DNA of 64,000 nucleotides from Umbilicaria muhlenbergii (lineage: Eukaryota > Ascomycota > Lecanoromycetes > Umbilicariales > Umbilicariaceae), in NCBI GenBank assembly GCA_000611775.1, contig KK106983.1:3862211-3926210 (forward strand), written 5' to 3'. Within the stretch, counting starts at the first letter, position 1. Every line of letters starts with the position of its first letter. The notes under the pieces are model-generated. The model made no database searches, was not told the origin of the DNA, and worked only from the letters and a program-made list of their open reading frames with translations. This document shows positions 3,222 to 64,000 of this stretch, one piece after another. The position numbers and the translations under genes were made by a program.

Positions 3222-3470
3222 CCCTCAATCCTCGACCCTCAATCCTCGACCCTCAATCCTCGACCCTCAATCCTCGACCCTCAATCCTCGACCCTCAATC
3301 CTCGACCCTCAATCCTCGACCCTCAATCCTCGACCCTCAATCCTCGACCCTCAATCCTCGACCCTCAATCCTCGACCCTCAATCCTCGACCCTCAATCCT
3401 CGACCCTCAATCCTCGACCCTCAATCCTCGACCCTCAATCCTCGACCCTCAATCCTCGACCCTCAATCCT
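3222..3470. repeat. 14-bp minisatellite, about 17.8 copies
   Basis: The unit CCTCAATCCTCGAC repeats head to tail with almost no variation over 249 bases. Because 14 is not a multiple of three, any frame through it has a 42-base period. The open frame that crosses it is therefore a by-product of the repeat, not a gene. Confidence 0.97.
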
Positions 3471-12733: not shown

Positions 12734-13250
12734 TTATTCCTCCTCCGCCGACTTCTTCTCTGCCCCTTCCTCTGCAATCGCATCCTCAGCAACCGTGTTC
12801 TCCGTAACCGCCTTCTCCTCAGTGGCCTGCTCCGCAACCGCCTTCTTCTCAGCAGCCACCCGCATCTTCAACTCTCTAATCTGTTAAAGTCAGTACCCGC
12901 CCCCCTCCCCCTTTCAAACTTGCGCTCCTACGACTTTACCTTCTCTGTAGCAACCTTCGCCTCTTTCACCATCTCTGTCCACTTCTCCCGCTGCGTCAGC
13001 AATTTGCCCGCCACTTGCGTCCGAAGGCCAGTAAAGTCCCGTATCCAAAAGGCCGAAATATTGTACAGAGACTGAAATCTGAGCGTCACATGCGAAGTGA
13101 GCAAGTACCTGTCGATGGAGTGGAGTTTGGTGTGCAAGTACTGTATTCGGTTCGGATTTCGTATACGCGGTCGATGAGGTGGTTGTGGTGGGTGATGGCG
13201 TCTGCGAGTCGTTGTTCGGTTGGGGGTTGGGGGAAGGGTGAGGTGGGCAT
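12734..13250 (-). pseudogene. Array member A (LVAAE-tail family), one-base frameshift
   Basis: First of ten related minus-strand genes. Exon 1 is 12940-13250 and exon 2 is 12734-12880, with a 59-base GTAAAG...CAG intron in phase 0. Exon 1 starts MPTSPFPQPPTEQ, then ADAITHHNHLIDRV as in the paralogues. Around 13138-13145 the reading frame moves by one base: the conserved motif continues as YLHTKLHSID in another frame. Exon 1 is 311 bases, one short of the phase-0 length, which fits a single-base deletion. The rest is intact, through QREKWTEMVKEAKVATEK and exon 2 IRELKMRVAAEKKAV, with an acidic/alanine tail. It could be a recent pseudogene or a one-base assembly error. Function unknown. Confidence 0.7.
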
Positions 13251-13608
13251 GGTTGGGGTTGGTGGTGTGTAGATGTGGAAGGTGGATGAGATTGTATTGC
13301 TTGCGAGGAAGGGGGTTTGTGGGGGTGGATGAATGGTAAGTATAACACCTATACTTCCGAACTGATGATTCAACAGATGACAGCTTATAGCTTGAGTGTG
13401 TGCGGACTGCTGGTATGGGAGATGGGGAGAGCGGTGTCACTGCTGAGATTCGGGGGCTTTGGAGATGGGAGAAGAATGCGGAGATGAGAGTGGCAGGGTT
13501 GGAGTACACGAAGATCAACAGATGGTGTGTGCTCTTCAGCTTAAGACGTTTAGTGTTGACTGCAGCTGTGTTGTGCACTCTGAAGGCACTTTTGACTGTG
13601 TGTACCGT

Positions 13609-14121
13609 CTACTTTGGCAGTGCTCTCTCTGCAATTGCTGCCTTTACAACAGCCTCCTTTGCAACCGCCTCCTTTGCAACCGCCTCCATTGCAACCGCCT
13701 CCTTTGCAACCGCCTCCTTCTCAGCAGCCACCAGCTTCTTCAACTCAACGATCTACCAGTAAATCAGCACCGGCCACCGCCGCGAGTCCTCCTGCACACT
13801 TACAATCTCCCCAACCTCCTTGAATTTCTTCATCAAAGCCGTCCAATCCTCCCGCGACGACATCAACCAGCGCCCCCACTCTTCCCGACTGTCACGGAGC
13901 TCTGCAGTCTGTCTGTCCCAATCAAGAGATTCTACCTCTGTCCACCCATGTCTGGGCACTCTGTTGCGTTTGCGCAGGGTTCCATCCATCGCGTGTATCT
14001 TGTCATGCTTAATAGAGTAATAAAGTCTCTCGGTCTGGATGCTTATGACGAGGGCCTCATGCTTATGAATGGCGTGTGATAGTTGTTCGGTTCGCGATCC
14101 TGGCTGTGGGGAAGATGGCAT
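13609..14121 (-). CDS. Array member B (LVAAE-tail family), 153 aa
   Basis: Exon 1 is 13804-14121 and exon 2 is 13609-13752, with a 51-base GTAAGT...TAG intron in phase 0. The protein opens MPSSPQPGSRTEQL, carries the family motif (YYSIKHDKIHAMD), then SREDWTALMKKFKEVGEI before the intron. Exon 2 begins IVELKKLVAAEKEAV and continues as about five copies of a 15-bp repeat encoding EAVAK, a predicted long helix. No signal peptide or membrane segment is seen, so it is probably intracellular. Function not recognised. Confidence 0.75.
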
Positions 14122-14461
14122 AGTGGGCTGATTACGGCTCAGCGCTTGAGTGCGTATAGAGAGGTACGTGATTGTGTAAGATGATGAGAAGGATGTTACT
14201 GCTGGGATGTGAAAGCTATGAAGATGGGAGAAGAAAGTGAGTGAATTAGAAAAGTGGAGATGAGTGTGGGTGAATTAGATGGCGGGGCTGAAGCATATGA
14301 GCATCATCGAGTGACTGCAGCTGTGTTGTGCACTCTGAGGATACTCTTGGGTATTCCTGCCATTCAATTTGGCAGTGTTTTATCCGCAATTGCCGCCTCT
14401 GCAGCCACTTTCACCACACGTTCCTTTTCAGCTACCGCTCCCTCCGCAGCAATCACCTTCA

Positions 14462-14981
14462 TCACAAGCACCCAGCTGCCTCCTCTGCACCCGCCTCGTC
14501 CGCACCCGCCTCCGCCACTACCTCATCCTCATCCTCTTCCTCTACCGCCCTCTCCTCTGAACCTGGATTCTCCTCCGCTGCCTTCTCCTCCGCTACCATC
14601 TTCTCTGCAGCAACCACCTTCTTCAACCCATTGATCTGTCTCCAAGTTAGCGCCGCCAAAATACCACTCGCCGCCACACGCGCTTACTCTCTCCCTAACC
14701 AGCCTGATTTCCTTCAACGCCTCCGTCCACTTCTCCCGCTTCTTCACCATACCCTCAACTTCGTACATTCGCCAGTTACGAAGATGCGCTACGGTTTGCT
14801 GTGCTCCGACCCCGTTCAATCTGCTCCAAATGCGCAGATTTTCATCGACATAGTGTGTCTGTTCATGAAAGCAAAGGTAGTCGACCTCGATTTGCTTGAG
14901 GTATATGAGGAGCTTGTTGTGCTCATCAATGGCGTCCGATAGCTGTTGTGAAGCGGAGTTTTGTTTTGGTGTAGCAAGCAT
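14462..14981 (-). CDS. Array member C (LVAAE-tail family), 155 aa
   Basis: Exon 1 is 14688-14981 and exon 2 is 14462-14635, with a 52-base GTAAGC...CAG intron in phase 0. The start MLATPKQNS aligns in length with the other members. An in-frame upstream ATG at 15029 (MALRPRSSS) is also conserved in member D and could be used instead. The motif is YLCFHEQTHYVD, then KKREKWTEALKEIRLVRER. Exon 2 opens INGLKKVVAAEKMVA and ends in a strongly acidic tail (AVEEEDEDEVVAE). Member D is its closest neighbour, which points to a recent duplication. Confidence 0.75.
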
Positions 14982-15303
14982 GGTGGATACTAAAGCTAGG
15001 CAGCTGCTTGAACGTGGACGCAACGCCACAGTTGCGGATGATGAGGGTGGTGTTGCTGCTGAGATGGGAGAGCTGTGAAAATGAGAGAAGAAGATGGTGA
15101 AGAAGATGGGGATGAGAATGGGTGAATGAAGTGGCGGGGTTGAAGCATATGAACATCATCGATTGGTGTGTGCTCTTAAGGTTTGCGACTGTTCATGTTG
15201 ATTCACTGCAGCTGTGTTGTGCGCTCTGAGGATAGTCTTGGCTATTGCTGCCATCACCTTTGCAGTGGTTTCTCCGCAAACGCCACGTCTGCAGCCACCT
15301 TCA

Positions 15304-15841
15304 TCACAAGCACTTAGCCGCCTCGTCCGCACCCATGCCTTCCGCCACTGCATCATCCGCCTCCTCCAATGCATCATCCGTCTCCTCCAATGCATCATCC
15401 GCTTCCTCCACTGCATCATCCGCCTCCTCCGCTGCCGCCTCCTCCACTGCCGCCTTCTGCTCCGCTGCCACCAGCTTCTTCAATTGAATGATCTAAAATA
15501 AGTCAGCATGTGTCTCTATACAACACACTATTTCTGGGCCTTACCTTCTCATTAACGGGCTTCACCTCTTCCAACGCCTCCGTCCACTTCTTTCGCTTCT
15601 TCACCAGAGCTTCCGCAACGTAAAGTCGCTGTTGACGAAGCGCGCTTACTGAACCATTTACCCCAGCACCGCCGGTGGACCCGCCATAATGGCTCAGCCA
15701 TTCATCACAGTAATGTATCCGAGCATGGAAAAACTGATAGTCACGTATGATGATCTCGATGTGTTCCATGAGCTCATAATACTCGGCAATGGCGTCTGAT
15801 AGTTGTTGGGTAGGGGATGTTTGTTTTGGCGTAGCAAGCAT
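15304..15841 (-). CDS. Array member D (LVAAE-tail family), 161 aa
   Basis: Exon 1 is 15545-15841 and exon 2 is 15304-15492, with a 52-base GTAAGG...TAG intron in phase 0. It opens MLATPKQTSPTQQLSDAI, nearly identical to member C, and has an alternative ATG at 15889. The motif is YQFFHARIHYCD, followed by KKRKKWTEALEEVKPVNEK. Exon 2 reads IIQLKKLVAAEQKAA and then four copies of a 21-bp repeat encoding EEADDA-type heptads. That seven-residue period is what a coiled coil would need. Function unknown. Confidence 0.75.
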
Positions 15842-16141
15842 GGTGGATATTGAAGCTGGGCAGCTGCTTGAGCGTGTACGCAACGCCATAGTTGCGGATG
15901 GTGAGGGTGGTTTTGCTGCTGAAGTCGAGGAGTGGTGGGAAAGGAAGAAGAGGTTGTGATGGAAAGATTGTGGAGTTTTTATAGTCCATTTTGATTCACT
16001 TGGGAAGTTAAAGTTTGGTGAGTGTTATTCAATTTCCCAGTTCCAGTACGAAGAGCAGCCTTTCCACCAACAAAAATGTGTTTAGTAACTAAGAACACTC
16101 CGTCAATTCCAAGTCAAGAACGCGCCCATAGTCTGAATCCG

Positions 16142-16705
16142 CTATTTGATACACAAGATCCTCCCTCCTTTCATGACAAAATCTTCGTCCGCATCTACTG
16201 CTTCTACTGCTTCTTTCCTCAACGCTACCTCCTCCTCAGCCACAATCCTCTTCAACCTATCGATCTGTCCACGAAATCATCAGTCTGATCACCCCATGCC
16301 AAAACCACTATCTATGCTCACCTTTTCCCTAATCACCCTGATATCCCTCCGAACACTACTCCATCGTTCTCGCTCCCCATCCATGCAAAAGGACCAATAT
16401 GATTGCATATCTCTGAGCCCCGTCTCCACATCCGCACGATCAATGGGCGAGAGTCCGAACGGATTATTGGGTGCCAGAAGTTGATGTAGCTCCTCTTGCA
16501 ACTCATGCAGTTTACAGTGATAGCGATGATAGGTGTTGGCGGAATATTCGGCGAGGGCGAGGAGAGATCCACGTTCATCGAGGGCCAGGGCCAGTTGCTG
16601 AGCAGCTTCAGTCGGCGGTTCTGAGGCTGGTATGTCTCTTGAGCGCTCACGGAAGCACGTGATGTCTGGTGATGAGGAGGCTGTTGAGCGCGTGGGGGAT
16701 GACAT
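16142..16705 (-). CDS. Array member E (LVAAE-tail family), 168 aa
   Basis: Exon 1 is 16322-16705 and exon 2 is 16142-16264, with a 57-base GTGAGC...CAG intron in phase 0. The protein starts MSSPTRSTASSSPD and has the motif YHRYHCKLHELQEEL. A loop follows (NNPFGLSPIDRAD), then GERERWSSVRRDIRVIREK. Exon 2 is IDRLKRIVAEEEVAL with a short acidic end. It is more diverged than B-D but keeps every landmark and an open frame. Confidence 0.72.
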
Positions 16706-19701: not shown

Positions 19702-20235
19702 TCACGTCTTCACCTTCGTACCCTCTGCACCATCTTCCCCCCCTCCCACCGCCTTCTCCGCCGCAACAACCTTCCGCACCTCCTTAATCTACTCCACCAT
19801 CAGCGCACGCACCACTCACACCTCGCTAACGAGCTCCCCAACCACACTCACCTTCTCCCGCACCCCCCCCAACCTCCCCATAACCTCCACCCAGCCCTCC
19901 CGCTTCGCCCGCATGCGCTTCAAAATACTGCCCCTCTGGTACAAAAACTGTTCCCTCTTCCCCTCGTAATAATCCCGATTCATCATGGGGCCGTCCCGTT
20001 CGAGCCGCAGGAGACGCGCGTCCTGTTTGTGCAGTTGGTTGTGGAAGGTGGCGTAGGATTGGCGGAAGGTGTGGCTGAGGTAGACGAGGTAGTGGTGGTC
20101 GTGGTGGAGGTCGGTGAGTTGTTCGGCGGCGGGTTTGGGGGGTGGGTGGAGGGTGAATATGTGAGGGTTGGGCGGAGGGGGCATCGGGGTGGGCGGAGAT
20201 GGGTGGGTGGGTTGTGTGCTTGGTGGCAGTGACAT
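19702..20235 (-). CDS. Array member H (LVAAE-tail family), 156 aa
   Basis: Exon 1 is 19852-20235 and exon 2 is 19702-19788, with a 63-base GTGAGT...TAG intron in phase 0. The N-terminus is proline-rich (MSLPPSTQPTHPSPP), then the motif YATFHNQLHKQD and AKREGWVEVMGRLGGVREK. Exon 2 is short: IKEVRKVVAAEKAVG, then a glycine/lysine end. Higher GC than its neighbours. No transmembrane helix or signal peptide. Confidence 0.68.
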
Positions 20236-20925
20236 TGTTGGTGATGATGAGGTGAGAGGCTGGGGTAGCAGCGGGTGGGGATGGGAGTTGGTTGGTGGGT
20301 TGAGAGAATGTAGGGGTGAGATGGGCGGGTGAGGTTCGTGTTGGGGAAGAAATCGAGATGACTTTGGAAGGAAAAGGGATTCCGTGAGAGATGTCAGATG
20401 GAGCTTGTGAGCGCAAACATCAATACTTGAAAAGCGCAGTAGTGTTGTTGAAACGGAGAGATAACGACATTCACAAGTAGACGCGTGATAAAAGCAGACG
20501 CGCCAGGTGGGGTCAATTCACTCTGGCTGTCCTGAACAGCGCAGAGCTTTGGTGACACTCACGCACCGGCCTCTATATTTTCTTCCGCCGGCATTCTCAT
20601 CTACGACTGCATTCACGTCCTTGATCACCTCATACTCCAACGCTGCCTTCTGTGTACTTGCTTTCTTTTGAAACTTATGCAACGCTTGCACACCGGATGC
20701 ACAGTCAATCTGTTAGCGCGCAGTATTCTTCATTCTCATCTTTTGAATAATATGCTATATGTGGCAGAGACTGGAAGCATAATCAATAGACGCGACTCCC
20801 AATTAGTGACGACTAGTTGAACGAAGAAAATCCGAGATATGATTGTAGGTTTGAAAGAGTCTCCCAGTTGAGCTTCTATCACCGTGCCCAAAAATATAAT
20901 TAAATACGCCTCCTGCGAACCCCAT
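20236..20925. other. Spacer upstream of member H and of the tRNA gene
   Basis: No supported gene. The stretch just before the tRNA (20890-20905) is AT-rich, as is common 5' of Pol III genes. Confidence 0.35.
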
Positions 20926-21048
20926 GCGGGTATAGCTCAGTTGGGAGAGGTGAGTCGTCCTCGTCCGTAACTGGCAGCAAAAGCTTATCATACGCACAGC
21001 GTATGACTGAAGATCATAAGGTCGTGCGTTCAATCCGCACTAGCCGCA
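20926..21048 (+). tRNA. tRNA-Phe (GAA anticodon) with a 50-base insert in the D arm
   Basis: Removing 20950-20999 leaves a 73-base tRNA. It has an A box (TAGCTCAGTTGG), a D stem GCTC/GAGC, an anticodon stem TATGA/TCATA around the loop CTGAAGA, a T arm GTGCG-TTCAATC-CGCAC with a perfect B box (GTTCAATCC), and discriminator A. The acceptor stem pairs except for G5-G68. There is no intron at the usual position 37/38. Instead the insert lies between positions 24 and 25. It begins GTGAGT and ends CACAG, like a spliceosomal intron. Pol III boxes A and B are intact. Whether this copy yields a mature tRNA is unknown. Confidence 0.8.
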
Positions 21049-21054
21049 TTTTTT
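21049..21054 (+). terminator. Pol III T-run terminator
   Basis: Six T residues begin immediately after the discriminator base of tRNA-Phe, as expected for RNA polymerase III termination. Confidence 0.75.
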
Positions 21055-21310: not shown

Positions 21311-21805
21311 CTACCAAAGTACCAATGCCTTCTCCGTAGCAACGCACTTCGTCAACTCCGCCATCTATTCTATATATTAGCAAGTACCATCACCATCTCT
21401 ACCCTTAGACTCATGTTGAACTCTCAGCCCATACCTGGTGCTTAACCGCATTTGCCCCTTTCAAGAACCCCGTCCCCTTCTCCCGCTCTCTGCTCATCTC
21501 ATCCGTGAGATACCCAGCATGGCCACCCGCCACTTCAGCATAACAACCAGTGGCGTACTGAAGATTGTTTTGGTGGTCGGTATCTGCGTGGCGAGTTTGT
21601 GAATAGTGGCGTATACATGTTGTAAGTTCTGGTGATGCTTATTGTATTATTCCTGAGTCAATTCGGCTAGGGTTATGAATTGATTGTATTTAGTAGTGGC
21701 TTCGTGAAGTTTAGCGGCCGCCGCGGGCGCTGAAGCTGGGAATGAAGTAAGAGCTTCAGCTGCTGGTGAAGGCAGAGTCTGACACAACCGAAAACCCTGT
21801 GACAT
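21311..21805 (-). pseudogene. Array member I (LVAAE-tail family), broken
   Basis: Starts MSQGFRLCQTLPSP at 21805 and reads AAAAKLHEATTKYNQFITL like its paralogues. It then meets an in-frame TAA just before YNKHHQNLQH, the family motif. A frame change follows, after which SREREKGTGFLKGANAVKHQ reaches a GTATGG donor at 21434. Exon 2 (21311-21364) reads MAELTKCVATEKALVLW and stops early. No GT donor lies close enough upstream of the TAA to splice it out. The TAA could come from CAA by a C-to-T change, as in RIP, but that is inference. Confidence 0.75.
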
Positions 21806-22049
21806 CTTACAATATTCAAGAGAGGAGATGGAAGTCTTGAACAGGTTGATGATGATGGTGCAACAGTCCAATTAGGAGTAGCACGACAGAAGAGATTGAG
21901 GATCGAATTGTACAGAAAAAGTGTGATGAAAGCTTGAGGGAGAACATGCAAGTATAACACATAGTAAGCCCTTTTCACTCCTTTAAGGTGTTATTGTTCA
22001 TTTGTCGCCTCATGAACCACCCTCGCCTCCTCCTCCTCTGCCTTGTGCA

Positions 22050-22552
22050 TCAACACCACCTTTTTCTCTGCGCCCTCTCCTCTGTTGTTGTCACCCCTGC
22101 CGCCCGCTCCTCTGCAGCAACGAGCTTCTCCAACTCCGACATCTGTTTGCATGTCAGCGCCTTTCTACATGATGCTGAGACTACTTTGCCATTACCTGCT
22201 TCTTGACTGCCTTCGCCTTCGTTATAAGTTCAATCCAAGTGTTCCTCTCCCTGCGCATGAATGTCGAAAGAGGACCAAGTTGCCCACCCCAATAGTTTTT
22301 CCCACTATCACCGTGGACGTCCCCCAGTAGTCTGTTTTTGTTATCAATTGAGCGGGCCCTGGCCTGCAGCTTATGGAGTTCGTCGTGGTCGCTTTTGTAA
22401 CGCTTCTTGCATCCGTTCGCAAGATCTAAGAGATGACGGTATTCGCATTCGGCTTTGTTCAGTTTCCCGGCCGCTGTTGTTGGAGTGGAGGACAAGGTAT
22501 CTAGATCTCGGTACGCGGCCAGGACCCAGTCAGAAGGTTCGCGAGAGTCCAT
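22050..22552 (-). CDS. Array member J (LVAAE-tail family), 149 aa
   Basis: Last member of the array. Exon 1 is 22196-22552 and exon 2 is 22050-22142, with a 53-base GTAATG...CAG intron in phase 0. It begins MDSREPSDWVLAAY, has the motif YKSDHDELHKLQ and then RRERNTWIELITKAKAVKKQ. Exon 2 reads MSELEKLVAAEERAAG and ends with a basic stretch (QRKRWC). The frame also stays open for 117 codons upstream. I choose the ATG at 22552 because it gives an N-terminal length like that of the paralogues. Confidence 0.7.
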
Positions 22553-23454
22553 CTTTGTGGGATTCGAATAGACGTTCGAGTTGGAAGATGGATGGAACGA
22601 TGTTGATAATGCTGTCAGAATCAGGGATGTGAAAGAGGTGAGAAACAAGATGGGAACGATTGAGAGTGATGTGATGACATGGCGAGCTTCATTCACTCCA
22701 CCGAGTGATACATCCCGCAAATCACCAACGTTTGAGAACATAGGTCGGCTTTCTTCGCGTCGTGGACAGACGGCGTTTAGTAAGTTAAGGGAATGGAATG
22801 TGATGCTACAAAGAGAAAGTGATGCTTTGATAGTGATAATTGTGCTCATGCTTGTCGACGCTTGGATAAGAAAGGGAAGCAGGCATGAAGATGTGCAGGA
22901 CAACTCTTACTCAAGGCCACTGTGACGCTGTGAGAAGTTGCGGCAGGGCCTTCTTGTCACCTAACTGCGGACACGGCGTCATGGATCTCGTGCGAAAGGT
23001 TCGATTGATCGATTCCCATGCTCAAGCCATCAATCGGAAGCAGACATGTAGCAGCGATACGCAGGAGGCCCCTCGACGCATCAACTATTTCAAGACGCAA
23101 GGCTCGTATAAGCATCCACTGCAGTCCTCCTTATCAGAGGCGGACAGCGTGTTTTCATCTCATTGAACAAGTCTGTGCCTCTCCACGACCGAGTGGAGTA
23201 AGAGGTAGATTGGTCGCCACACAGTAGGCCCAGAAGTACCCACCAGCAGTGTTCGGCATGCGCCTTTCAAGCCCGTACAATATAAACTCGGCGACGCTGT
23301 CACCAGCCGGCACCCGAACCCGAACGTCCTTGCATAAGCTGCACCGTTGTGCCCTCCCCTGCCTTTCACACCGACGATTAATCGCCAAACGGCGACTAGT
23401 CAGTATTTTGTTTCATGTTTCTGGGCTAGCGCTGTGGTGAGAGGCTACTGCTCA

Positions 23455-28377: not shown

Positions 28378-31300
28378 TCAACGTCGATAATATAGCCCCC
28401 AAATCTTCTTTTCTGCTTCCGAAAACTCGGGGAGTCGACCTTCGTCCCACATAGCCCATAATCTTGCTGCTGCTAGAGACATTCCGTCGTCACTGCTCTG
28501 TGAATAGTGAGAAGGGTGGTGTACGACAATATGGTCCCGGGAAAGCAGCAGCTTGCAGATCGCTACGGACCCAGCCTTCATCGCCATCAACACTGGTGTA
28601 TACCGTTCCAAATTTACAGCATTCACCTCAATATCAGGGTGAGCCAGTAGAAGCTTGACAGCTCCGTCACGACCCTGCCCTGCCGCTTGAGATAAGGCAG
28701 TAGAACCTCTGGCATTAGCAGCATTCACCTCAATGTCAGGGTGAGCCAGTAAAAGCTTAACAGCTCCGTTACTTGCTGCTTCAGATAGGGCAGTAGAACC
28801 TCCAGCACCAGCAGCATTCACCTCAATGTCAGGGTGAGCCAGTAAAAGCTTAACAGCTCCGTTACTTGCTGCTTCAGATAGGGCAGTAGAACCTCCAGCA
28901 CCAGCAGCATTCACCTCAATGTCAGGGTGAGCCAGTAAAAGCTTAACAGCTCCGTTACTTGCTGCTTCAGATAGGGCAGTAGAACCTCCAGCACCAGCAG
29001 CATTCACCTCAATGTCAGGGTGAGCCAGTAAAAGCTTAACAGCTCCGTTACTTGCTGCTTCAGATAGGGCAGTAGAACCTCCAGCACCAGCAGCATTCAC
29101 CTCAATGTCAGGGTGAGCCAGTAGAAGCTTGACAGCTCCGTCACGACCCCGCTCTGCCGCTTCAGATAGGGCAGTGAAACCTCTGGCATGAGCAGCATTC
29201 ACCTCAATGTCAGGGTGAGCCAGTAGTAACTTGACTATTATGTCATAACCATGACGTGATGCACCATGTAGGGCAGTAGAACCTCCGGTATCAGCAGCAT
29301 TCACCTCAATGTCAGGATGAGCCAATAACTCGCCAACTATCGTGTGACAGTTCTGTCGTATTGCCGAATGTAGGGCGGTCATGCCACTTAGAGAAGACAC
29401 GTTATTAACATTAACATCATCGCGGGCCAGAAGCAGTCTGACAACCGCTGAGTTTTGCTTCTCAACTGCCCAGTGGAGCGGAGTTGACCCGGCGTCTTCT
29501 TTGGCATCTGCCGTGAGTCCCGTATTCAGTAGAGCCTCCACCAACTCCTTTGAGCCGAAACCCGCAGCGAATTGTAATGCTGATAACCTGAGAGGCGTCT
29601 CCATCCAAAAGGCCTTGTCCATCCAGAATATGAGCTCGGTCGCAGTATTCAGCTTGAAAGTGGAGGAAAAGAATTCCAGTGTCATAGTCCTAATAGGCTC
29701 TGATGACATGTCTCTGGCATGCTTGGCCCAATGAATAGCAGTGTATTTAAGGAGAGGGTACTTGTTCAACAAGGGCTTGAACGCATGATCGGTGATCATG
29801 TACATAGGCAGACGCCTTGAGAGTCTTCCTTTATATGAATCATGATCATGATGCCGGCGTTCCTTGTTAAATTGAGCTGTTACTTGCCCAAGTCCGTGAA
29901 ATGAAAGGTAGGTCAAACAGATTTCCATGATACTAGTGTGGCATTCGATTGAGCGCCGCTCCCAGACACGTTCGAAGTACTCCTGAGTGGTGTAGTGCAC
30001 CAGGCGAATTATCTGACTTTCTTCATCCACTACCACCAAGCCAGCGCAAGATGCAATCATTTCATCTGGATCAGGCAGGTTCTCTTCGTCGAGCTCCGGA
30101 TCGTCCAACTCCACTGCCAGAGCGTGCTGAAGCTCTAAGACAGTTAACGGTCGCAGAGCGAAGATAATCCAGGTGAGTGCTTTGTCCGCCAGATTCCGAA
30201 ATCCCGGTTTTTGGTTGCTGATTCTCTCCATGGCTTGATTATAAGCAACATCCAGAGCGTCCGACCCCTTAGGCAAATCCTCCAAGGCGGCCTTCACATC
30301 CCTCGTCGTTATCTTGTCCACCAAGGAGTCGAGGTGAAGCTGTGCAAGCAAAAACCTTGGAAGAGGTCAGGTAGTGCATCTAGACGGACGATGAGGGGCA
30401 CATACATTCCATCGACAGCATTGACGATCTCGCGCTCTATACGTTCTTGTAGAGTAATATTTCGCGTAACACAGCTTGGAAGCCGGTGCATTTGACCTTG
30501 AAGGTATGTCCGCACATCACCTTCGCTCGCTTTGATCTCCAGTCTCACTGCATCTTTGAAGTCTTGTATTATCGTGGGAATCGGCCGTGATGTAGCAGCC
30601 AAGTTGATGTCGCACTTAGACTGAAGATCACAGATATATGAGAGAACATCGCGGCGCGTGACATCTGAGTCAGAGCACTCATCCAGGGCATCCAGCATGA
30701 TAAAAATCTTGGAATATCTGCATGCCTCGATTTCCAGTAGATCACAGACTTCCCGGAGGGTTGGCCGGCTTTTGCTCCGCAAGTGAGTTTGGTAGAGATT
30801 TGATGCTTCCTTCGAGATCAAATCTTGCCCTTGAATAAGTTGTCTCAACAAACTTGAGAAGATATTCAAAGGAGTCTGCTCCATATGAAGTTTGTATCTG
30901 CAGTAGATGAATGCGACGCCAACGTTTTCTCCGCGGAAGGTATTTCTGAGATGGTCTATCACAATGGACGCCATGATCGTTTTGCCGGCTCCAGGAATCC
31001 CCGGACAGAACAAGGTCTGCCGTGATCCATTCGTCCAGGCCTTAAATTTGAGTGATTCAAGCAGCCATGTTCCGGTGCCTTCCTGTCTTCTGGCAAAAGC
31101 ATCGTTCTGTTGGGTCGAATAGTCAAGTGGAGATAGCCAATCTAGAATTTCCTGATGCTGTTGATTCAATTGCTGTCGTTTGAGATGTTGTTCTATCTCA
31201 GTCACACCGGCTTGCGTTTGCTTCCTTCAAATAATAAGCGATATAACGATCGAAGCTTTGAGGAGGATGCCAACCTTGCTAAACTACTATTGAGGGAATC

Positions 31301-31741
31301 TAGCATAGCGACATTTGAGGCAATACGCGACCGAAGTTTCGTTACCTCATCTTGATCCCAAGTTATCTTCTTCCATGCCTTCTGAGACTTGGCTTTGAAG
31401 CTTCCAGAATCCGCCTCCAAGGTGTGGAATTTAGTTATCAGGGCGTTTAGCGCATCTAGAACATCCTGACAACCTTGCAAGAGAGATTTTAGATCCTTAT
31501 CCTCCTTTTCAGAGAGCTCACGGTGCTTCATAGAGTCGGTGACATCTTGGAGAACAAGTGAAAGGCCGGCAACCCTAATAAATTATAAGCAGGGTGGCGG
31601 TAAACATGGGTGGGTTGTAGCTAACTCTGAGCGAATGGCTTTGAATTGAGCACCCGAGTCAGAAAATCTCTTATGGACTTCGCGGGCGAGTGTAGCGACA
31701 GCTATGACGTCCCCCACTCCAACACCGAAGGGAAGACCCAT
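28378..31741 (-). CDS. NACHT-ankyrin NLR-like protein
   Basis: STAND-class receptor ATPase of the kind linked to fungal non-self recognition and programmed cell death. Exons 31626-31741, 31275-31574, 30406-31224 and 28378-30355 join in phase to 1,070 residues; introns are 51, 50 and 50 bases. The N-terminal region (MGLPFGVGVGDVIAVATLA onward, about 140 residues) is helical and resembles the leading domain of fungal NACHT proteins. Walker A is GIPGAGKT near residue 214 and Walker B is IFIMLDALDEC. A winged-helix-like segment follows with the usual VHYTTQEYF motif. From about residue 670 come ankyrin repeats, four of them near-identical 31-residue units. The donors of introns 1 and 2 (GTTAGC, GTTGGC) are unusual but keep the frame. 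Confidence 0.88.
28737..29110. repeat. 93-bp tandem repeat encoding identical ankyrin units
   Basis: Four successive 93-bp units inside the NLR gene are almost identical in DNA, including silent positions. They encode AVKLLLAHPDIEVNAAGAG followed by GSTALSEAASNG. The flanking ankyrin units are more diverged. Confidence 0.92.
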
Positions 31742-32758: not shown

Positions 32759-34863
32759 ATGTTTCACTCAAAGTCCAGGTTCGAAATCATGCTTCTCTGC
32801 GCCTGGAGTCTGCTGGCAAGCCTGGCGCTGGCGGCAGTCACACAGCTCGCCTTGAGCAGCTCCATTCCCCAGAGGTTGGAACATGACCAGCTGGGTGCTG
32901 TCGCGTCAGAGAATTCGTTATGTAGCCGCATCGGCATCGAGTTGCTGAAGGCGGGCGGGAATGCTGCGGATGCCGTATGTGTGCCGTCCTTGCGCGTTGA
33001 AGGGGTAGTAATTGATCACGCGAGCAGCATGTTGGGACTGCATTCTGCGTCGGCGTGATTGGTGCCGTAGTCCCATGTTTCCTAGGGGGATTTGACACTG
33101 AAACCCGTAGGATCATACCATAGCGGCATTGGCGGAGGAGGCTTCATGCTCATCCGGTCTCCCAACGGCACCTACGAAGCCGTCGACTTTCGGGAAACCG
33201 CTCCCGCAGCTGCATTCGAGAATATGTACAAAGGGAATATCAACGGCTCTGTCATTGGTGGCCTCGCTAGGTGGGCCTTCCGCATATATTTTGAGTTATG
33301 AATCTTATGGGCTGATCCTGAGATCGTTACAGTGGCGTGCCTGGTGAAGTCCGCGGCCTCGAGTACCTTCACACACGCTACGGCGTCCTCCCATGGAAAA
33401 CTGTACTCGAACCCGCCATCATACTCGCACGAAACGGATTTCCTATCCAAGAAGACCTACTGTCCGCGATGGAACGCGGCACTGAGGCCTACGGCTTCGA
33501 CTTCCTTACCGACAACCACGCCTGGGCACTAGACTTCGCTCCGAATGGCACACGCTTGGGACTGGGCGATATAATGAAGAGGAAGAGATATGCGGATACG
33601 TTGGAGACGATTGCGGAGGGAGGAGCTGATGTATTCTATACGGGGCCGATGGCCGAGGCAATGATCTCATCGGTACAGGCCGCGAATGGAACTATGACGA
33701 TGGCGGATCTCCAGAACTACAGTGTGATTTCCAGTCCTCCTCTGCAGATTGATTACAGGGGATATCGTGTGCACAGTTGCGGTGCTCCAGCTAGCGGTGC
33801 AGTTGTTCTTAGCGCGCTAAAGATCGTTGAGGGATACGAAGGCTTCGGACGAGAAGACATGCTCAACCTTAGTACACACCGTCTGGATGAGGCGATTAGA
33901 TTTGGCTATGGGCAGGTATGAACGTGGTACGATTGCTATATGGAAGACTTGCCTGATTGGATGCTTAGAGAGCAAGCTTGGGAGACCCTGCGTTCGTTGA
34001 CAGCCTTGCGACTTATGAGTTAGAGATGATCAACTCCACAACAGCCACCATCAATCGCGGCAAGATCTCTGATAAGCATACATTGAATATCTCCGATTAC
34101 GATCCGGATGGATTCGAGAGCCTCGAAACGTAGGCACCTATACTTGTTCCTACCTTGGTTGGATACTAATCGGTCAGGCATGGTACATCACACATCGTCA
34201 CTGCAGATGCATCTGGACTGGCCATCACTCTAACAACCACCATCAACCTCTTCTTCGGGTCAACGTTGATGGTCCCCGAAACTGGTGTCATCATGAACAA
34301 TGAGATGAATGGTATGCTACCCCCATCGCCCTTCACCAATCCATTGCCCACTCCGCACTCACCACCATCTACCCCCCAACCCCAACGACAACCCATCTTG
34401 ACTAAACCCCCAAACAGACTTCTCCATCCCCAACGTCCGCAACAAGTTCGGCTACATCCCCTCCCCCTCCAACTACATCCGCCCCCGCGCCCGGCCCCTC
34501 AGCTCCATCACCCCCACCATAGTCGAGCACCCAAACAGCACCCTCTACTACATCCTCGGCGCAGCCGGCGGCTCGCGCATCATAACCGCCACGATCCTCA
34601 ACCTCTGGCACGTGCTCGACCGCAACATGACAGCCCCCGAAGCGCTTGCCCAACCCCGGCTGCACGACCAGTTGATACCGAATGAGGTGGCATTCGAAGA
34701 CGGGTACGATCCAGGGGTGGTGGAGTTTATGCGGGGGAGGGGACATGTGGTTAGGGGGATGGGGACGATGAGTTCGGCGCAGGTGGTCAGGCGCTTGGGG
34801 AATGGGACGTTTGAGGCGGCGGGGGAGCCGAGGCAGAGGAATTCGGGGGGGTTGGTGGTGTAA
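32759..34863 (+). CDS. Gamma-glutamyltransferase
   Basis: Cleaves the gamma-glutamyl bond of glutathione and its conjugates; an N-terminal nucleophile hydrolase that processes itself into two chains. Seven exons (32759-32974, 33028-33061, 33111-33270, 33333-33915, 33969-34129, 34178-34311, 34418-34863) give 577 residues with all phases consistent. Residues 10-32 (IMLLCAWSLLASLALAAV) form a signal peptide or membrane anchor. Conserved blocks are GIELLKAGGNAADA, YHSGIGGGGFML, DFRETAP and SGVPGEVRGLE. The self-cleavage site is in ETHGTSHIVT, where the threonine of the TSH triplet is the expected nucleophile. GAAGGSRI, the substrate pocket, is also present. Exon 2 is only 34 bases, and its boundaries rest on restoring the usual FCVGV segment. 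Confidence 0.9.
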
Positions 34864-51500: not shown

Positions 51501-52381
51501 CTCGGAAGGCCTCCGCCAAGAAGTCCCCCTACTTCCCCAAGTCGCCGTCCGAGAAAATCTCATGCATACCCTTCCCACCCCTGCAAGCCACATCATTCGG
51601 CCTCGTGCAAGAAAAGCTAAGCCACGACCCCTTCCGCCTCCTCATCGCCACCATCTTCCTCAACAAAACCAAAGGCTCCGTCGCCATACCCGTCTTCTAC
51701 GACCTCACGGCCCGCTACCCCACCCCCGCCCACCTCGCCGCCGCCAACCAAAAAGACCTCGTGGACATGATCCAGCATCTCGGACTCCAGAACCAACGCG
51801 CGGCCAAATGTATTAAACTTGCGCAGGCTTGGCTCGACAACCCGCCCGGGAAGGGGAGGCGCTATCGACGACTGCACTACCCAAATAAAGACGACGGGAA
51901 GGATATCCGGGCGACGGAAGGACCTATATCCGACGACGACGGAAGGGTTGCGTGGGAAATCGGCCATTTACCGGGAATAGGCGCTTACGCAATCGACAGC
52001 TGGCGCATCTTCTGCCGCGACGAGCTGCGCAGTCTTCCGCACGGGCTCGTCGCTGGGGACCTCACCCCGGAGGCGCGGATTGAGGAGCTGGAGAAGGAGT
52101 GGACGAGGGTGCTGCCGGGGGATAAGGAACTTAGAGCTTATTTGCGGTGGAGATGGTTGAGGTTGGGGTGGATGTGGGACCCGCTCACGGGGGAGAAGGT
52201 GGGGGCGGGNNNNNNNNNNNNNNNNNNNNNNNNNNNNNNNNNNNNNNNNNNNNNNNNNNNNNNNNNNNNNNNNNNNNNNNNNNNNNNNNNNNNNNNNNNN
52301 NNNNNNNNNNNNNNNNNNNNNNNNNNNNNNNNNNNNNNNNNNNNNNNNGGGGAGGGGCGTGTGGATGACGACTTGAGCTGA
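48525..52381 (+). CDS. MBD4-like HhH-GPD DNA glycosylase with a long basic N-terminus; contains an assembly gap
   Basis: Base-excision repair enzyme of the MBD4/endonuclease III fold, expected to remove T or U from G mispairs. Exons 48525-49170, 49237-50981 and 51035-52381 join in phase; the third exon includes 139 N. Residues 1-800 are low-complexity. They include a duplicated motif (YNTEG[VI]SREDL[KE]LW, copies near 48859 and 48982) and several lysine/arginine clusters (KKRRRRKRKSG) that look like nuclear localisation or DNA-binding segments. The catalytic region begins near FGLVQEKLSHDPFRLLIATIF. Its helix-hairpin-helix LPGIGAYAIDSWRIFCRDEL holds the expected catalytic aspartate (IDSW). 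No separate methyl-CpG-binding domain is visible. The gap falls after WMWDPLTGEK, beyond the core, so mainly the last residues are uncertain. Confidence 0.85.
52210..52348. other. Assembly gap (139 N)
   Basis: Run of N inside the last exon of the MBD4-like gene. The flanks are G-rich (GGGGGCGGG before, GGGGAGGGG after), which suggests a low-complexity stretch that failed to assemble. The true length is unknown. Confidence 0.99.
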
Positions 52382-56676: not shown

Positions 56677-59600
56677 ATGGGTTTCACCTTTTCTTCTCCA
56701 CAGCTCGCTGGTGCCAAAAGCTGGGCATCCACGGGTCCTGTACCCTCCGTGACCAGTTCGTATCAATGGTGGCCTACAAATACCAACAGCTTTGGTATTA
56801 CGGCAGACCTTAACTATCCCAGTAAGCTACTTTCTTCCCTATATACTATCGCGCTCTTCGACTCATCTTTGTCTTTTAGCTGCTTCTCACTGGGCACCAA
56901 CTCCGGTCCTCTCCCAGGCTGGTCTGGGAATCGTTACTTGTGCGCCATGGGCAACATCTCAAACATACGGATCTATAGTGTGCCCGATTGCGGCTACAGC
57001 TTTAACACCTGGCAACGTTTTCATGGGGTTTAGTGCAGCCAATTCATTGCAGAATTGGTATGTCTTCTCTATTGCGCCGACGAAATCGACCTTGATCACC
57101 CAAACGGCTATTATAACTTCAACTGCGCCTCCGACTCCAGCTGCGACCACTTCGGTTACAACCATTCTATCGACGTCTACTATTACGAACACTGCATATT
57201 CAACTCTCTCCGGCACGGTGACGTCAGCTGTAGCAGGCAATTGTCCCAGCCCCACACCAGCCGTCACAATTTCAACCACAACCAATTTGGCTACGTCAAC
57301 TGTCATCGTTACCAACTTCGTCACTCTCACCGGTGTGATAACCTCAACTACAGCTGGCACCTGTCCTGTGCCCACACCGGGCTTTACGACCTCGGTAACT
57401 ACCAATCTAGCCACGTCGACTTCCACAAGCACAGCATTCACGACTCTTACGGGTGTGGTAACCTCAGCTGTAGATGGCCACTGTCCAAACCCGACGCCGG
57501 CTTTTACAACCTCGACGACTACCAATCTAGCGACTTCGACTGCTACGAACACAGCCTTTACAACCCTCACTGGTGTGGTAACGTCGGCTGTAGCAGGCAC
57601 TTGCCCTACCACCAGCACTACCACTACCATTACCCCCACTTCAACCAGTACCAGCTCAGCTCTTGCGCCAAGCAGCTCGTCTACGTCTACGAGCTCAGCT
57701 TTGGTAAGCAGTGGTTCGAGCATTAGTTCAGGCAGTGGCTCCAGTATTGGCGCTGGCAGTACCAGTTCGTCTGTTGTACCGTCCAGCTCGTCTTCCTCAA
57801 CCAGCTCCAGTTTGATTTCCAGCAGTGGCTCAAGCACCAGCGGCGGCTTCACCAGTACCCTCACTTCAACCAGTACCAGCTCAGCTCTTGCGCCAAGCAG
57901 CTCATCTACGTCCACGAGCTCAGCTTTGATAAGCAGTGGTTCGAGCATTAGTTCAGGCAGTGGCTCCAGTATTGGCGCTGGCAGTACCAGTTCATCTGTT
58001 GTACCGTCCAGCTCGTCTTCCTCAACCAGCTCCAGTTTGATTTCCAGCAGTGGCTCAAGCACCAGCGGCGGCTTCACCAGTACCCTCACTTCAACCAGTA
58101 CCAGCTCAGCTCTTGCGCCAAGCAGCTCATCTACGTCCACGAGCTCAGCTTTGATAAGCAGTGGTTCGAGCATTAGTTCAGGCAGTGGCTCCAGTATTGG
58201 CGCTGGCAGTACCAGTTCATCTGTTGTACCGTCCAGCTCGTCTTCCTCAACCAGCTCCAGTTTGATTTCCAGCAGTGGCTCAAGCACCAGCGGCGGCTTC
58301 ACCAGTACCCTCACTTCAACCAGTACCAGCTCAGCTCTTGCGCCAAGCAGCTCATCTACGTCCACGAGCTCAGCTTTGATAAGCAGTGGTTCGAGCATTA
58401 GTTCAGGCAGTGGCTCCAGTATTGGCGCTGGCAGTACCAGTTCATCTGTTGTACCGTCCAGCTCGTCTTCCTCAACCAGCTCCAGTTTGATTTCCAGCAG
58501 TGGCTCAAGCACCAGCGGCGGCTTCACCAGTACCCTCACTTCAACCAGTACCAGCTCAGCTCTTGCGCCAAGCAGCTCATCTACGTCCACGAGCTCAGCT
58601 TTGATAAGCAGTGGTTCGAGCATTAGTTCAGGCAGTGGCTCCAGTATTGGCGCTGGCAGTACCAGTTCATCTGTTGTACCGTCCAGCTCGTCTTCCTCAA
58701 CCAGCTCCAGTTTGATTTCCAGCAGTGGCTCAAGCACCAGCGGCGGCTTCACCAGTACCCTCACTTCAACCAGTACCAGCTCAGCTCTTGCGCCAAGCAG
58801 CTCATCTACGTCCACGAGCTCAGCTTTGATAAGCAGTGGTTCGAGCATTAGTTCAGGCAGTGGCTCCAGTATTGGCGCTGGCAGTACCAGTTCGTCTGTT
58901 GTACCGTCCAGCTCGTCTTCCTCGACCAGCTCTAGTTTGAGTTCCAGCAGTGGCTCGAGCACCGGCAGCAGCTTCATCAGTGTCTCCAGTGGTGGTTCCA
59001 TTGTTGGCGCAGACAGCACCAGTTCGACTCTTGCGCCTGGTAGCTCGTCTACGTCCACTAGCTCGGCTGTGGTGAGCAGTGGTTCCAGCAGCAGTTCAAG
59101 TAGTGGATCCAGTGTCGGTGCAGACAGTACCAGCTCTGCTCTTGCGCCTGGCAGCTCAACCGCATCCACTAGCTCGGCTGTGGTGAGCAGCGTTTCCAGC
59201 AGCGGTCCAAGTAGTGGATCCAGTGTCGGTGCAGACAATACCAGCTCTGCTATTGCGCCTGGTAGCTCATCCACATCCACTAGCTCAGCTTTGGTGAGCA
59301 GTGATTCCAGCACTACCGCCAGCGTCGCCCTCAGCACCGGCTCAAGTGCCGGCTCAGAAAGCACCTTTGTCAGTACCAGCTCTTCCTTCGCGGGTAGCGG
59401 TGCCTCATCTTCCGCAAGCTCTACCCTCGTGGGCGGCTCAGGCAGTGGCTCAAGCATTGACGCGGGCAGCACCTCGTCTGACGTCACCACTTCGGCAGCT
59501 CCGATGACTGCTGCCTCGTCGACTGCTTCTGACTCAGCCACTGTCAGCTTATCAAGTTCAACTGATAGCGCCTCTTCTTCCACGAGCTCATCACCCGTGG

Positions 59601-62600
59601 GCGGTGGTTCAGGCAGTGACTCTGGCAGTATCTCCTCCAGTGCCAGCTCATCCTTTGCGCCGAGCGGCTCATCTGTGGATTCCAGCTTGACAACCACTGG
59701 CGAGGCCTCCGTTATAACTAGCAGCTCATCTGACGTTGCCAGCAGCATTGGCAGTTCGCCAACTACAACTAGCAGTACTGACAGCTCAGCTGGCGCCAGC
59801 TCGTCCCTCTCTTCGAGCGATGGCAGCATCGTCAGCACTTCTGCACCTTCGGTCGGCGACCAACAATCTACATCTACTGTTACCGCCGATGGCGGTAATG
59901 CAGCGTCAAGTACGAATGCTTTATCCTCCACCGCGTCTAAGAGCTCGACCTCTGTCGTTCCTACAGATAGCGGTGCAGCTTCAACGATTAGTAGCTTGTC
60001 CTCAGAGTCTACTGGCTCATCTTCATCGATCACTCTCAGCGGTGACAGGGTGGCCAGCGCAAGCAGCACAGCTGCTGACTCTGCTTCCACATCCAGTGGC
60101 GCCAGCGCATCGGCTTCCGCGACCAGCAGTGATGGCGGTGCCTCTGGCTCTGGGCCCTCAGATAGCAGCAACTCTGCCTCTACATCAACTGACATCAGCA
60201 ACACAGCTTCCACTACCGCAAGTGCTAGCACTGTTTCTGACTCTGGATCTTCAGATGGCAGCTCATCTTCTTTGAGCTCCGTACTGAGCAGCTCTTCGTC
60301 AATGGCTACTAGCTCATCGACAGTAACAGATGGTTCGTCTAGGATGTCAGACAGCTCGTCTACCACGGCTTCCAGCCCATCTTCAACGGCCGACAGCGCC
60401 TCTATCACAGCCGGTCCAACGTCAGTTTCCAGTACTTCTGCTGGAAACGTCGACACTGTCACTGCTAGAGACTCCACTACAATCGACAGCGCTTCGGCCC
60501 CCACCACGACCACCGGGAACTTCATGTCGTCACTCCTCTCGAGCTTGAGCTCCATGGTTATTGGCTCAACGTCGGTGACAGCTGATTCTGCTACCATCAC
60601 CAGCACTACCCTATCTTCAATGACTAGCGACTCGTCGTCTGTTTCTGACAGCTCGACAACCCTGATGTTGTCTGCCAGTTCGGCCGTTGGGGAAATTGAC
60701 TCTTCTATGACGTCTGATAGCTTTTCGTCATCGGCGGACACTACCAGTTCGTCCGTGCCCAAAATCTCGACGTCTTCTACAGATGCTAGTACCACTACTG
60801 TATTCGGCGGGTCTTCCACCGACAATGCTCAAACTACTTCGACTGAGGCCTCTACTTCTACGCCTGTTGAGGCCTCGGCCACGCTCAGCACAGTTGGTAG
60901 CTCCACTAGTACTGACAGCGCCTCTTCTACGTCAACAGAAGGTTCTATTTCTGCATCTGATGGATCATCACTTACAGTTGGTAGCTCCACTGTGACTGAC
61001 AGCTCCTCTTCCGTGACGACAGAAGGCTCTGCTTCTGCATCTGGTGTATCATCAGTCACAGGTGCTAGTTCCTCTATCATGACAGACAGTGCTTCATCAG
61101 TGGTCAACAGTGCTATCACTACGGTAACTGATGGGGGTTCGTCCTCGAGCAGCGCAGCGATCTCGGCCCAAACCAATGTTTCGGCCTCTTCCTCGACTGA
61201 TGTATCTTCCGTAACTACTAATGTGTCCAGCGTTTCAGCTAGTGTTCCCACATCCACCGGTTCGTCCACAGTCGTTGGAGACGCCTCTACTACATCAGCT
61301 AGTGGAACGATCACGAGTACCTCTACCAGTTCAGCTGCTGCAGACGGACAAACTTCGTCGTTCGGTAATAGCGCCACCATTTCAACTGATTCGTCTACAG
61401 CTACTGGAGAGGCCTCATCATCATCGACCGATTTGGTTCTGTCATTGAGTTCGTTTCCAACAATCAAGGCCACCTCGACAACCACTTCAACTACATCTGT
61501 TGTTTCTTCCATCGCGGGCGGTCAAGGTTCTTCCACCACTGTTGCGGCCACGACGTCTTCTTCAAGTGATGCTATCTCAGGTGGTTCTTCCACTGCTGTG
61601 GATGTCACATCTACAGCAACTGAGTCAGCTACGTCGACTAGTGCTTCCGCTGTTGTGGACAGTACATCATCCACCGCAACCAATTCTAATACGTCGACTG
61701 GTTCTTCCACAGTTGTGGACAGCGCTTCATCAGTCGTCAATAGTTTCGCCACGTCAAGCAGTTCTTCCACTGTTGTGGATGGCACAACATCAAATGCAGC
61801 TGATTCCGCCACGTCATCTAGCTCTTCCACTGCTGTGGACAGCGCCTCATCAACTTCCACCGACTTCGCCACGTCAACTGGCTCTTTCACTGTAGTGGAC
61901 GGCGCTTCATTAGTCACCACTGGTTCCGCCACATTGTCTGCTTCTTCCAACCTTGTGGACAGCGCCTCATCAACTTCCACTCACTCCGCTGGGTCAAGTG
62001 GTTCTTCCACTGCGATTGGAGGCACTTCATCCACCGCAACTGATTCCGTTACCTCAGCTGGTCCTGTTGTTGGTGGAAGCAGTTCATCCACTGCAACTAA
62101 TTCTGCTACGTCGAGTGCTTCTTCAACTGTTGTGAATGGCGCATCATCCACCTCAACTGACTCTGCTACTTCGAGTGGTTCTGATTCTGTTACATCAAGT
62201 GGCTCCTCCATTGTTGTCGGAGGCGCTTCATCAACTGCAACAGACACAACTACATCGACTGGTTCTTCTGTTGTTGTCGGAGGAACTTCGTCTACCTCAA
62301 CTGAATCTGCTACATCAAGTAGCTCTCATGTTGTTGTCGGAGGCACTTCAACTACCTCAACAGATTCTGCTACGTCAAGTGGTCCTGTTGTTGTCGGAGG
62401 CACTTCAACTACCTCAACAGATTCTGCTACGTCAAGTGGTCCTGTTGTTGTCGGAGGCACTTCAACTACCTCAACAGATTCTGCTACGTCAAGTGGTCCT
62501 GTTGTTGTCGGAGGCACTTCAACTACCTCAACAGATTCTGCTACGTCAAGTGGTCCTGTTGTTGTCGGAGGCACTTCAACTACCTCAACAGATTCTGCTA

Positions 62601-64000
62601 CGTCAAGTGGTCCTGTTGTTGTCGGAGGCACTTCAACTACCTCAACAGATTCTGCTACGTCAAGTGGTCCTGTTGTTGTCGGAGGCACTTCAACTACCTC
62701 AACAGATTCTGCTACGTCAAGTGGTCCTGTTGTTGTCGGAGGCACTTCAACTACCTCAACAGATTCTGCTACGTCAAGTGGTCCTGTTGTTGTCGGAGGC
62801 ACTTCAACTACTTCGATAGATTCCGCTACATCAAGTGGTCCTGTTGTTGCCGGAGGCACTTCATCTACTTCAATGGATTCTGCCACATCAAGTAGTTCTC
62901 CTGTTGTCGTCGGAGGCAGCTTATCAGCTGCGACCGATGCTACTTCATCAGGTGCTTCTTCTGTCGTTGGGGGAGGCTCATCCTCGACAACACTTGTAGA
63001 CGGTACTTCATCAACCACATCAGCCACTGTCATGTCGAGTGTTTCGTCCGTTGTTGTAGGAGGCATTTCGTCGGCGCAGGCCAATTCCGCGACTGCGAGC
63101 ACCACGTCAACGAACGTTACGGGTGCTTCCTCACTCTCGGGCAGTATAGTGAGCACGAGCCGCTTATCTACTTCTACGGACGTCCCTACCAGCTCTGTCA
63201 CCTCAACCAGCGCAGTTGTAACGAGTGGCTCCACGATTAGCGGCTCGTCTGTTTCTACAGAGGTCCCTACCAGCTCTGTCACCTCAAGCAGCCCAGCTGT
63301 ACCGAGTGGCTCCTCGACCGTTGGTGGCGATTCTTCGTCAACCTCAAGCACGTCAGCCGGGTCTAGTGGTCAATCTTCGAGGGGAGGTAGCTCCTCTTCG
63401 ACATTGAGTGGCGCAGGGTCAACCAGCAATTCTGATTCATCCACTCTTGGAGGAAGTAGTGTTTCTTCCTCAGGAAGTGCACAGTTACCGGGGAGCTCTC
63501 CTTCCTCATCAACTACCGCATCTTCTTTGGCTGGTGATAGCTCGTCCCTCTCAACGACCGCCGCAGATAGAGCCGCCTCGTCCACTTCAAGCGATTTTGC
63601 TTCCTCTTCGAGCAGCTCATCTTCCGCACCTAGTCAGACTTCTTCACAAGGTAGTTCAGTTGTATCAAGCAGTTCAACATCCACGCCTAGCAGCACGACT
63701 TCGTCGGCGGTCTCGCTTGGATCAAGCAGTTCATCTGATATGCCCGGAAGTTCAACTTCCTCTGGGAACTCGGCTGGGCCGAATAGCTCAACCTCCTCCG
63801 CAGGCTCGGCTATGTCAAACGGCTCTTCCGGCTCCAGTGGCTCGTCAGTGGGTGGGTCAGTCACTTCCAGCAGCTCCTCTACTTCACCTGTTAGTACGTC
63901 GTCTTCGAGCGGCACAACATCCTCAAGTACTTCGACAATTGTTTCTTCGAATGGCGCTGTTGTACCGGGCACCTCGTCTACCTGTCTCTTATGCACATCT
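56677..64000 (+). CDS. Giant Ser/Thr-rich cell-surface protein, 5' part (runs off the window)
   Basis: Exons 56677-56821 and 56880-64000 with a 58-base GTAAGC...TAG intron. The frame is open from 56677 to the window end, more than 2,400 residues. Residues 1-110 form a small domain with two or more cysteines (SSYQWWPTNTNSFGITADL; IVTCAPWATSQTYGSIVCP). Next come four 40-residue repeats, each with one cysteine (CPxPTP...TTNLATST...TTLTGVVTSAV). After that the chain is almost entirely Ser, Thr, Gly, Ala and Val, with nearly perfect 75- and 19-residue repeats. Such composition implies dense O-mannosylation and a wall-anchored, mucin- or flocculin-like role; this is inference from composition. The C-terminal end, including any GPI signal, is not in the window. 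The start could lie upstream in the 56247-56501 exon. Confidence 0.85.
57242..57625. repeat. 120-bp repeat, four copies, one cysteine each
   Basis: Cysteine codons fall at 57242, 57362, 57482 and 57602, exactly 120 bases apart. Each is followed by a CPxPTP-type motif, or CPTTS in the last copy, and TTNLATST-like sequence. Confidence 0.9.
57632..58910. repeat. 225-bp coding minisatellite, about 5.7 copies
   Basis: Blocks beginning ACCAGTACCCTCACTTCAAC recur at 57851, 58076, 58301, 58526 and 58751, exactly 225 bases apart, with very few substitutions. One unit encodes 75 residues, including SSGSGSSIGAGSTSSSVVPS. The first and last copies are slightly diverged. Confidence 0.95.
62342..62856. 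repeat. 57-bp coding minisatellite, nine copies
   Basis: Units beginning GGCACTTCAACTACCTCAAC recur every 57 bases from 62342 to about 62798. They encode a 19-residue unit that includes GTSTTSTDSATSSGPVVVG. The central copies appear identical, and the last ones carry substitutions. Confidence 0.95.
63982..64000. other. Probable Tn5/Nextera adapter remnant at the sequence end
   Basis: The last 19 bases, CTGTCTCTTATGCACATCT, match the Tn5 mosaic end CTGTCTCTTATACACATCT at 18 of 19 positions. They also break the Ser/Thr-rich composition by encoding CLLCTS. This is most simply an untrimmed library adapter at a contig end. Confidence 0.75.

Follow-up and report, generated by a model that had tools for sequence, protein, structure and literature searches.

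Introns in structured RNAs

Introns of eukaryotic transfer RNA (tRNA) genes are described as the province of the endonuclease-ligase pathway. The U6 RNA of fission yeast, an RNA polymerase III (Pol III) transcript, carries an intron of the messenger RNA (mRNA) type that is reported to be spliced and for which reverse splicing has been proposed as the origin (PMC10484740), and spliceosomal introns are also reported from the 18S ribosomal RNA (rRNA) genes of ascomycetes (Cubero 2000 and Bhattacharya 2000, cited in PMC11889510). Nucleomorph tRNA genes likewise hold introns, the splicing of which is called unknown (PMC4090602). Here we describe a 64,000-nucleotide (nt) stretch of the genome of Umbilicaria muhlenbergii (contig KK106983.1, positions 3,862,211 to 3,926,210 of the forward strand), called the window throughout, in which a tRNA-Phe(GAA) gene at 20926-21048 (+) spans 123 nt including an insert of 50 nt. 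From its sequence we read the insert, with a probability of about 0.42, as an mRNA-type (GT-AG) intron placed at an AG/C site in the D stem (24/25) of a nuclear tRNA gene that would be transcribed by Pol III.

An interrupted tRNA-Phe gene

When the two exons are joined, ARAGORN recognizes a single tRNA-Phe(gaa) of 73 nt that forms the cloverleaf and displays the GAA anticodon. All pairs form in its D, anticodon and T stems, and the acceptor stem has one mismatch, G5.G68. Plant and Neurospora tRNA-Phe carry G5.A68 at the same pair, and for that reason the mismatch need not mean decay. The minimum-energy fold of the joined, unmodified tRNA (-28.2) differs from the cloverleaf (-21.2), a result that was judged uninformative. 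The canonical 37/38 intron site is uninterrupted; in Aspergillus niger, two tRNA-Phe genes are listed as 73 bp and intronless (PMC6108506). An earlier note on this DNA had proposed a 50-base insert between positions 24 and 25 beside an intact 37/38 site, the removal of which leaves a nearly perfect 73-base tRNA with A and B boxes and a T-run terminator. The insert and the joined tRNA were borne out, an A box, a B-box-like motif and a T run are present, and the exact coordinates are collected in Table 1.

Table 1. Coordinates, in the window, of features at the interrupted tRNA-Phe locus
Feature	Position	Strand	Basis or remark
TATA-like AT-rich box AATATAATTAAATA, 20-33 nt upstream of tRNA	20893-20906	+	sequence; role presumed
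Exon 1, tRNA-Phe positions 1-24	20926-20949 (24 nt)	+	ARAGORN on joined exons
A box TAGCTCAGTTGG	20933-20944	+	sequence; consensus
Hairpin, exon-side arm, pairs with 20959-20975; loop TGAGTCGT	20935-20950	+	predicted fold
Insert GTGAGT...CAG, between tRNA positions 24 and 25 (D stem)	20950-20999 (50 nt)	+	
Donor-like GTGAGT	20950-20955	+	with exon context, 8/9 match to MAG/GTRAGT
Hairpin, insert-side arm, pairs with 20935-20950	20959-20975	+	predicted fold
CTTAT, sole YTNAY branch-site candidate in insert, A at 20987	20984-20988	+	weak
Left arm TCATACGC of perfect 8-bp inverted repeat spanning 3' junction	20988-20995	+	
Acceptor-like CAG	20997-20999	+	sequence, register test
Right arm GCGTATGA of the same inverted repeat	20999-21006	+	
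Exon 2, tRNA-Phe positions 25-73, anticodon GAA	21000-21048 (49 nt)	+	ARAGORN; covered by Rfam tRNA match 20974-21048
B-box-like GCGTTCAATCC	21026-21036	+	sequence; consensus
T6 run, Pol III terminator-like	21049-21054	+	sequence; role presumed

Run without introns, ARAGORN reports no tRNA in the window; in its intron mode the locus is labelled as a tRNA-Met(cat) at 20925-21049 with a 31-nt intron, which points to a possible blind spot in the detection of such genes. tRNAscan-SE 2.0 is described as seeking non-canonical introns in those candidates that come from its archaeal search model (PMC8450103). The window yielded no further tRNA, including by an Rfam search with E up to 1. The sole Rfam match, at 20974-21048, scores 41.3 bits against a gathering score of 29 and would suit a pair of overlapping tRNA copies, in which the second half of the insert would represent the eroded 5' half of another tRNA; the alignment also supplies C5 opposite G68. 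This is nonetheless the least probable of the explanations considered here, for 908 of 20,000 shuffled inserts pair with exon 2 equally well (by a simple pairing score), exon 1 scores 14/15 versus 10 for the second half of the insert, 1974 of 2000 shuffles are as similar to exon 1 as the insert is, and the D loop of the candidate 5' half, inspected by eye, is without GG. We take the match as a forced alignment.

Intron-like ends and a weak branch site

Since exon 1 and the insert both close with AG, the junctions can be drawn in three equivalent registers that yield the same spliced product, one of which reads GAG/GTGAGT...CAG/CG. Strict GTRAGT...YAG ends in an allowed register, such as the donor and acceptor of a U2-type intron would have, arose in only 2 of 200,000 base-shuffled inserts; in this strict sense the ends of the insert are intron-like beyond chance.

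For comparison, local introns were taken from gene models, because counts of the intron pattern over the whole window are not raised above shuffles (18, whereas 20 shuffles average 23.4). Compromise settings gave 13 gene models with 41 predicted introns, several of them surely wrong; other settings were unusable, producing either 1008 introns that covered nearly the whole window or 6 genes with 5 introns. A gamma-glutamyltranspeptidase model at 32789-34863 has introns of 69, 62, 53, 48 and 106 nt, all predicted only and the first apparently mis-set by eye, and when spliced it aligns to PF01019 from position 2 to position 511 of the 512-position profile. Introns of 50-57 nt occur in further models, and the 50-nt insert lies within the predicted local range of 48-57 nt. 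Of the features that had been claimed for the insert, the consensus donor and the CAG acceptor hold, and the local intron length is supported by predicted introns, with one gene model backed by Pfam.

The donor consensus is MAG/GTRAGT, a CTRAY shortly before the acceptor is usual in fungi, and G is usual as the first exon base downstream. A donor score of 8/9, that of the insert, is reached by 2 of the 41 predicted introns, whose gene models were themselves scored on donors. Among the 25 predicted local introns of at most 90 nt, CTRAY is present in 15 (and so missing from 10) and YTNAY in 17, and the background at 1000 random YAG sites is 6.8% for CTRAY and 25.5% for YTNAY. The true CTRAY rate of local introns is uncertain, since branch scoring went into the models and some of their introns are false; ORF (open reading frame) joining without branch scoring gave 6 donors, with CTRAY in 2.

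Ends beyond chance, together with a length that fits the predicted introns, make an mRNA-type intron a tenable reading. With its A and B boxes retained, the gene would be transcribed by Pol III through to the T run; the spliceosome rather than the tRNA endonuclease would excise the 50 nt with GTGAGT as donor, the A of CTTAT as a weak branch point and CAG as acceptor, and the joined RNA would then adopt the cloverleaf. The intron would probably have originated by reverse splicing or another form of insertion of a spliceosomal intron, in the way proposed for the U6 intron of fission yeast. Several observations weigh against such an intron. CTRAY, the branch element looked for in a U2-type intron, is absent from the insert; exon 2 begins with C instead of the usual G; the loose GT...AG pattern is found in 681 of 200,000 shuffled inserts; and the very stable fold predicted for the unspliced RNA (described below) could hinder splicing. 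In addition, the 64 kb contain no second copy of the insert when searched with its first 22 nt at up to 3 mismatches, and blastn of the whole insert against the window gives a next best match of 11 nt. A search by tRNA-Phe pattern gave no match in genome_contigs and found no relative in viral_contigs; these prokaryote and viral collections contain no fungal genomes by design, so that this absence says little.

Given the weakness of the branch site, a dead gene has nearly the same likelihood, and this explanation stands closely behind that of an mRNA-type intron. The locus would then be dead or silent: of several tRNA-Phe genes, this one would have received a 50-nt, possibly intron-derived, insertion, and its RNA, if made at all, would be discarded. 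Insertions in the D or T arm of one among many synonymous genes are supposed to mark pseudogenes (Yoshihisa review, PMC4090602), and a table for A. niger numbers tRNA-Phe genes 2 and 12 within a total of 284 tRNA models (PMC6108506), a numbering that suggests many copies in a filamentous fungus and hence that loss of one could be tolerated. Both the acceptor mismatch G5.G68 and the lack of D and anticodon stems in the unspliced fold also agree with a dead copy. Harder to reconcile with it are the rarity of strict intron ends among shuffles, the good preservation of exons, promoter-like boxes and T run, and the pairing of the D, anticodon and T stems after joining; the 5-68 mismatch, moreover, has the counterpart in plant and Neurospora tRNA-Phe noted above.

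Folding of the unspliced RNA

The 123-nt unspliced RNA is predicted to fold with a minimum free energy (MFE) of -49.0 (z score -4.4), and 1 of 200 shuffles of the whole RNA is as stable. The same MFE is reached by none of 1000 dinucleotide-shuffled inserts and by none of the 13 introns of 45-62 nt predicted in the window, when placed at the same site, yet by 16 of 995 plain 50-mers of the window. When the parts are folded separately, shuffles are as stable in 540 of 1000 cases for the insert, 286 of 1000 for the insert with exon 2, and 38 of 1000 for exon 1 with the insert. Pairing probabilities are 0.83-1.0 in the acceptor stem, except at 5-68, and 0.96-1.0 in the T stem, but 0 in the D and anticodon stems; by prediction, therefore, the RNA would have no tRNA function unless the insert is removed. 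A stem of 7 bp or more at the junction appears in 41 of 20,000 shuffles. The splice signals themselves are mostly unpaired, with probabilities of 0.9-1.0 for TGAGT of the donor, 1.0 for CA of the acceptor and 0.81 for the branch A, values that carry no shuffle control. A further-reaching reading, less likely than not, is that maturation of the tRNA depends on the spliceosome, with a fold in which loops expose the donor, the branch A and the acceptor, and the D and anticodon arms stay masked for as long as the insert is in place.

Alignments of the insert with eight targets (the exons, their reverse complements and the 100-nt flanks) were each equalled by 239 or more of 5000 shuffles. The best match to a flanking target is inverted, to exon 1 (239/5000), and the inverted match to exon 2 was equalled by 769/5000; the two inverted exon matches summed were equalled by 167/5000, and among random window segments compared with their own flanks 153 of 3986 do as well. 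These matches thus give no more than a hint of a fold-back origin of the insert.

These results also bear on whether the locus now specifies a different structured RNA, in which the acceptor stem and T arm serve as processing handles and the remainder has refolded with the insert. An MFE unmatched by shuffled inserts or by predicted introns, and the strong pairing of the acceptor and T stems, would be expected of such an RNA. Against it, some window 50-mers give equal stability, the separate parts are ordinary, the complementarity of insert and exons is weak, and the exons keep the complementarity of the D and anticodon stems, which a structured RNA of this kind would not need; overall it appears very improbable.

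Another possibility is that the insert is a non-canonical intron of the type that the tRNA splicing endonuclease excises. Introns of this kind are known from archaea, from nucleomorphs and from the red alga Cyanidioschyzon, with the D arm among their locations and archaeal ones at 25/26 (PMC4090602). In the present RNA, however, the best bulge-helix-bulge in any register forms 6 of 10 pairs, and 3514 of 5000 shuffles are as good. The yeast enzyme is reported to be strict for 37/38 (PMC4033280), whereas the insert lies at 24/25, and the D arm, a reported contact of the Sen54 subunit (PMC4090602), is disrupted by the insert. We regard endonuclease cleavage as very improbable for this gene.

Origin of the insert

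The earlier note had offered an intron-type element that landed in a Pol III gene, perhaps introner-like, as one explanation. The ends and length of the insert fit the first part of this proposal, with the weak branch site counting against it; the introner-like part finds no support within the 64 kb, where the insert is single and its best similarity to the 41 predicted introns is equalled by 126 of 500 shuffles.

The tRNA-Phe pattern has one match in the viral_contigs collection, a tRNA-Phe that has a tRNA-Val as its neighbour on a contig from IMG/VR. It was rejected as a relative, as outside the pattern it is not, by eye, closely similar to the gene of the window.

The surrounding window

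By its gene content and its short introns, the window appears to come from a filamentous fungus. The tRNA gene sits inside an array of diverged paralogous ORFs on the minus strand (12937-16627, 19825-20145 and 21423-22555), the pieces of which share 21-48% identity by tblastn. Pfam assigned no family to four of the array ORFs, nor to a piece of the array ORF at 22.2 kb. In a merged array model at 13609-15841, introns of 51-52 nt are predicted at 13753, 14636 and 15493. Farther along, a minus-strand gene at 28378-31531 combines NPHP3_N, a GPIID winged helix and ankyrin repeats, and includes a 93-bp repeat of 6.8 copies with 88% matches; it resembles fungal NLR-like genes. Tandem repetition is also found at 3222-3470, where the 14-bp unit CCCTCAATCCTCGA is present in 17.8 perfect copies, and at 56959-63998 (-), a long repeat coding region covered by two gene models, apparently Thr/Ser-rich, with units of 57-225 bp.

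A scaffold gap of 139 N occupies 52210-52348, and CTGTCTCTTATGCACATCT, at 63982-64000, lies exactly at the window edge and is one mismatch from the Nextera mosaic-end adapter; it could be adapter left untrimmed at the end of a contig. With a draft-type assembly, a gap and an adapter-like stretch, an assembly or library artefact might be suspected at the tRNA gene as well. The adapter-like stretch is confined to the window edge, the base composition of the insert is ordinary, and intron ends are hardly to be expected of an artefact, all of which makes this explanation very improbable.

Comparison with known systems

Among the matches listed by a search of the open-licence literature, which mostly leaves subscription journals outside, none described a nuclear tRNA gene that carries a spliceosomal intron, which is not proof that no such case exists. 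The eukaryotic tRNA pseudogenes with D- or T-arm insertions (PMC4090602) share with the present locus an insertion in an arm, and differ in that the insert here has precise consensus intron ends. Introns of Cyanidioschyzon merolae, nucleomorph and archaeal tRNAs (PMC4090602) are similar in interrupting the D arm; those of C. merolae and archaea are tied to the endonuclease and to the bulge-helix-bulge, in contrast to the GT-AG ends and the absence of such a site in the tRNA-Phe gene. The introner-like elements of Dothideomycetes (PMC4457414) are, like the insert, of spliceosomal type with a stable predicted structure (PMC8469720), but the insert has no second copy in 64 kb.

Closer likenesses are found in RNAs other than tRNA. 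The introns of ascomycete 18S rRNA (cited in PMC11889510) are spliceosomal-type introns in a structured non-coding RNA, as the insert would be, although they concern rRNA and many cases rather than one tRNA gene. U6 small nuclear RNA of Schizosaccharomyces pombe resembles the locus in having an mRNA-type intron within a Pol III transcript (PMC10484740); in that case the RNA is reported to be spliced and belongs to the spliceosome itself, whereas here a tRNA with a weak branch site is read from sequence. If the reading given here is true, a tRNA that requires the spliceosome would add a further member, besides U6 and rRNA, to the structured RNAs that host mRNA-type introns, and would lend support to intron gain by reverse splicing.
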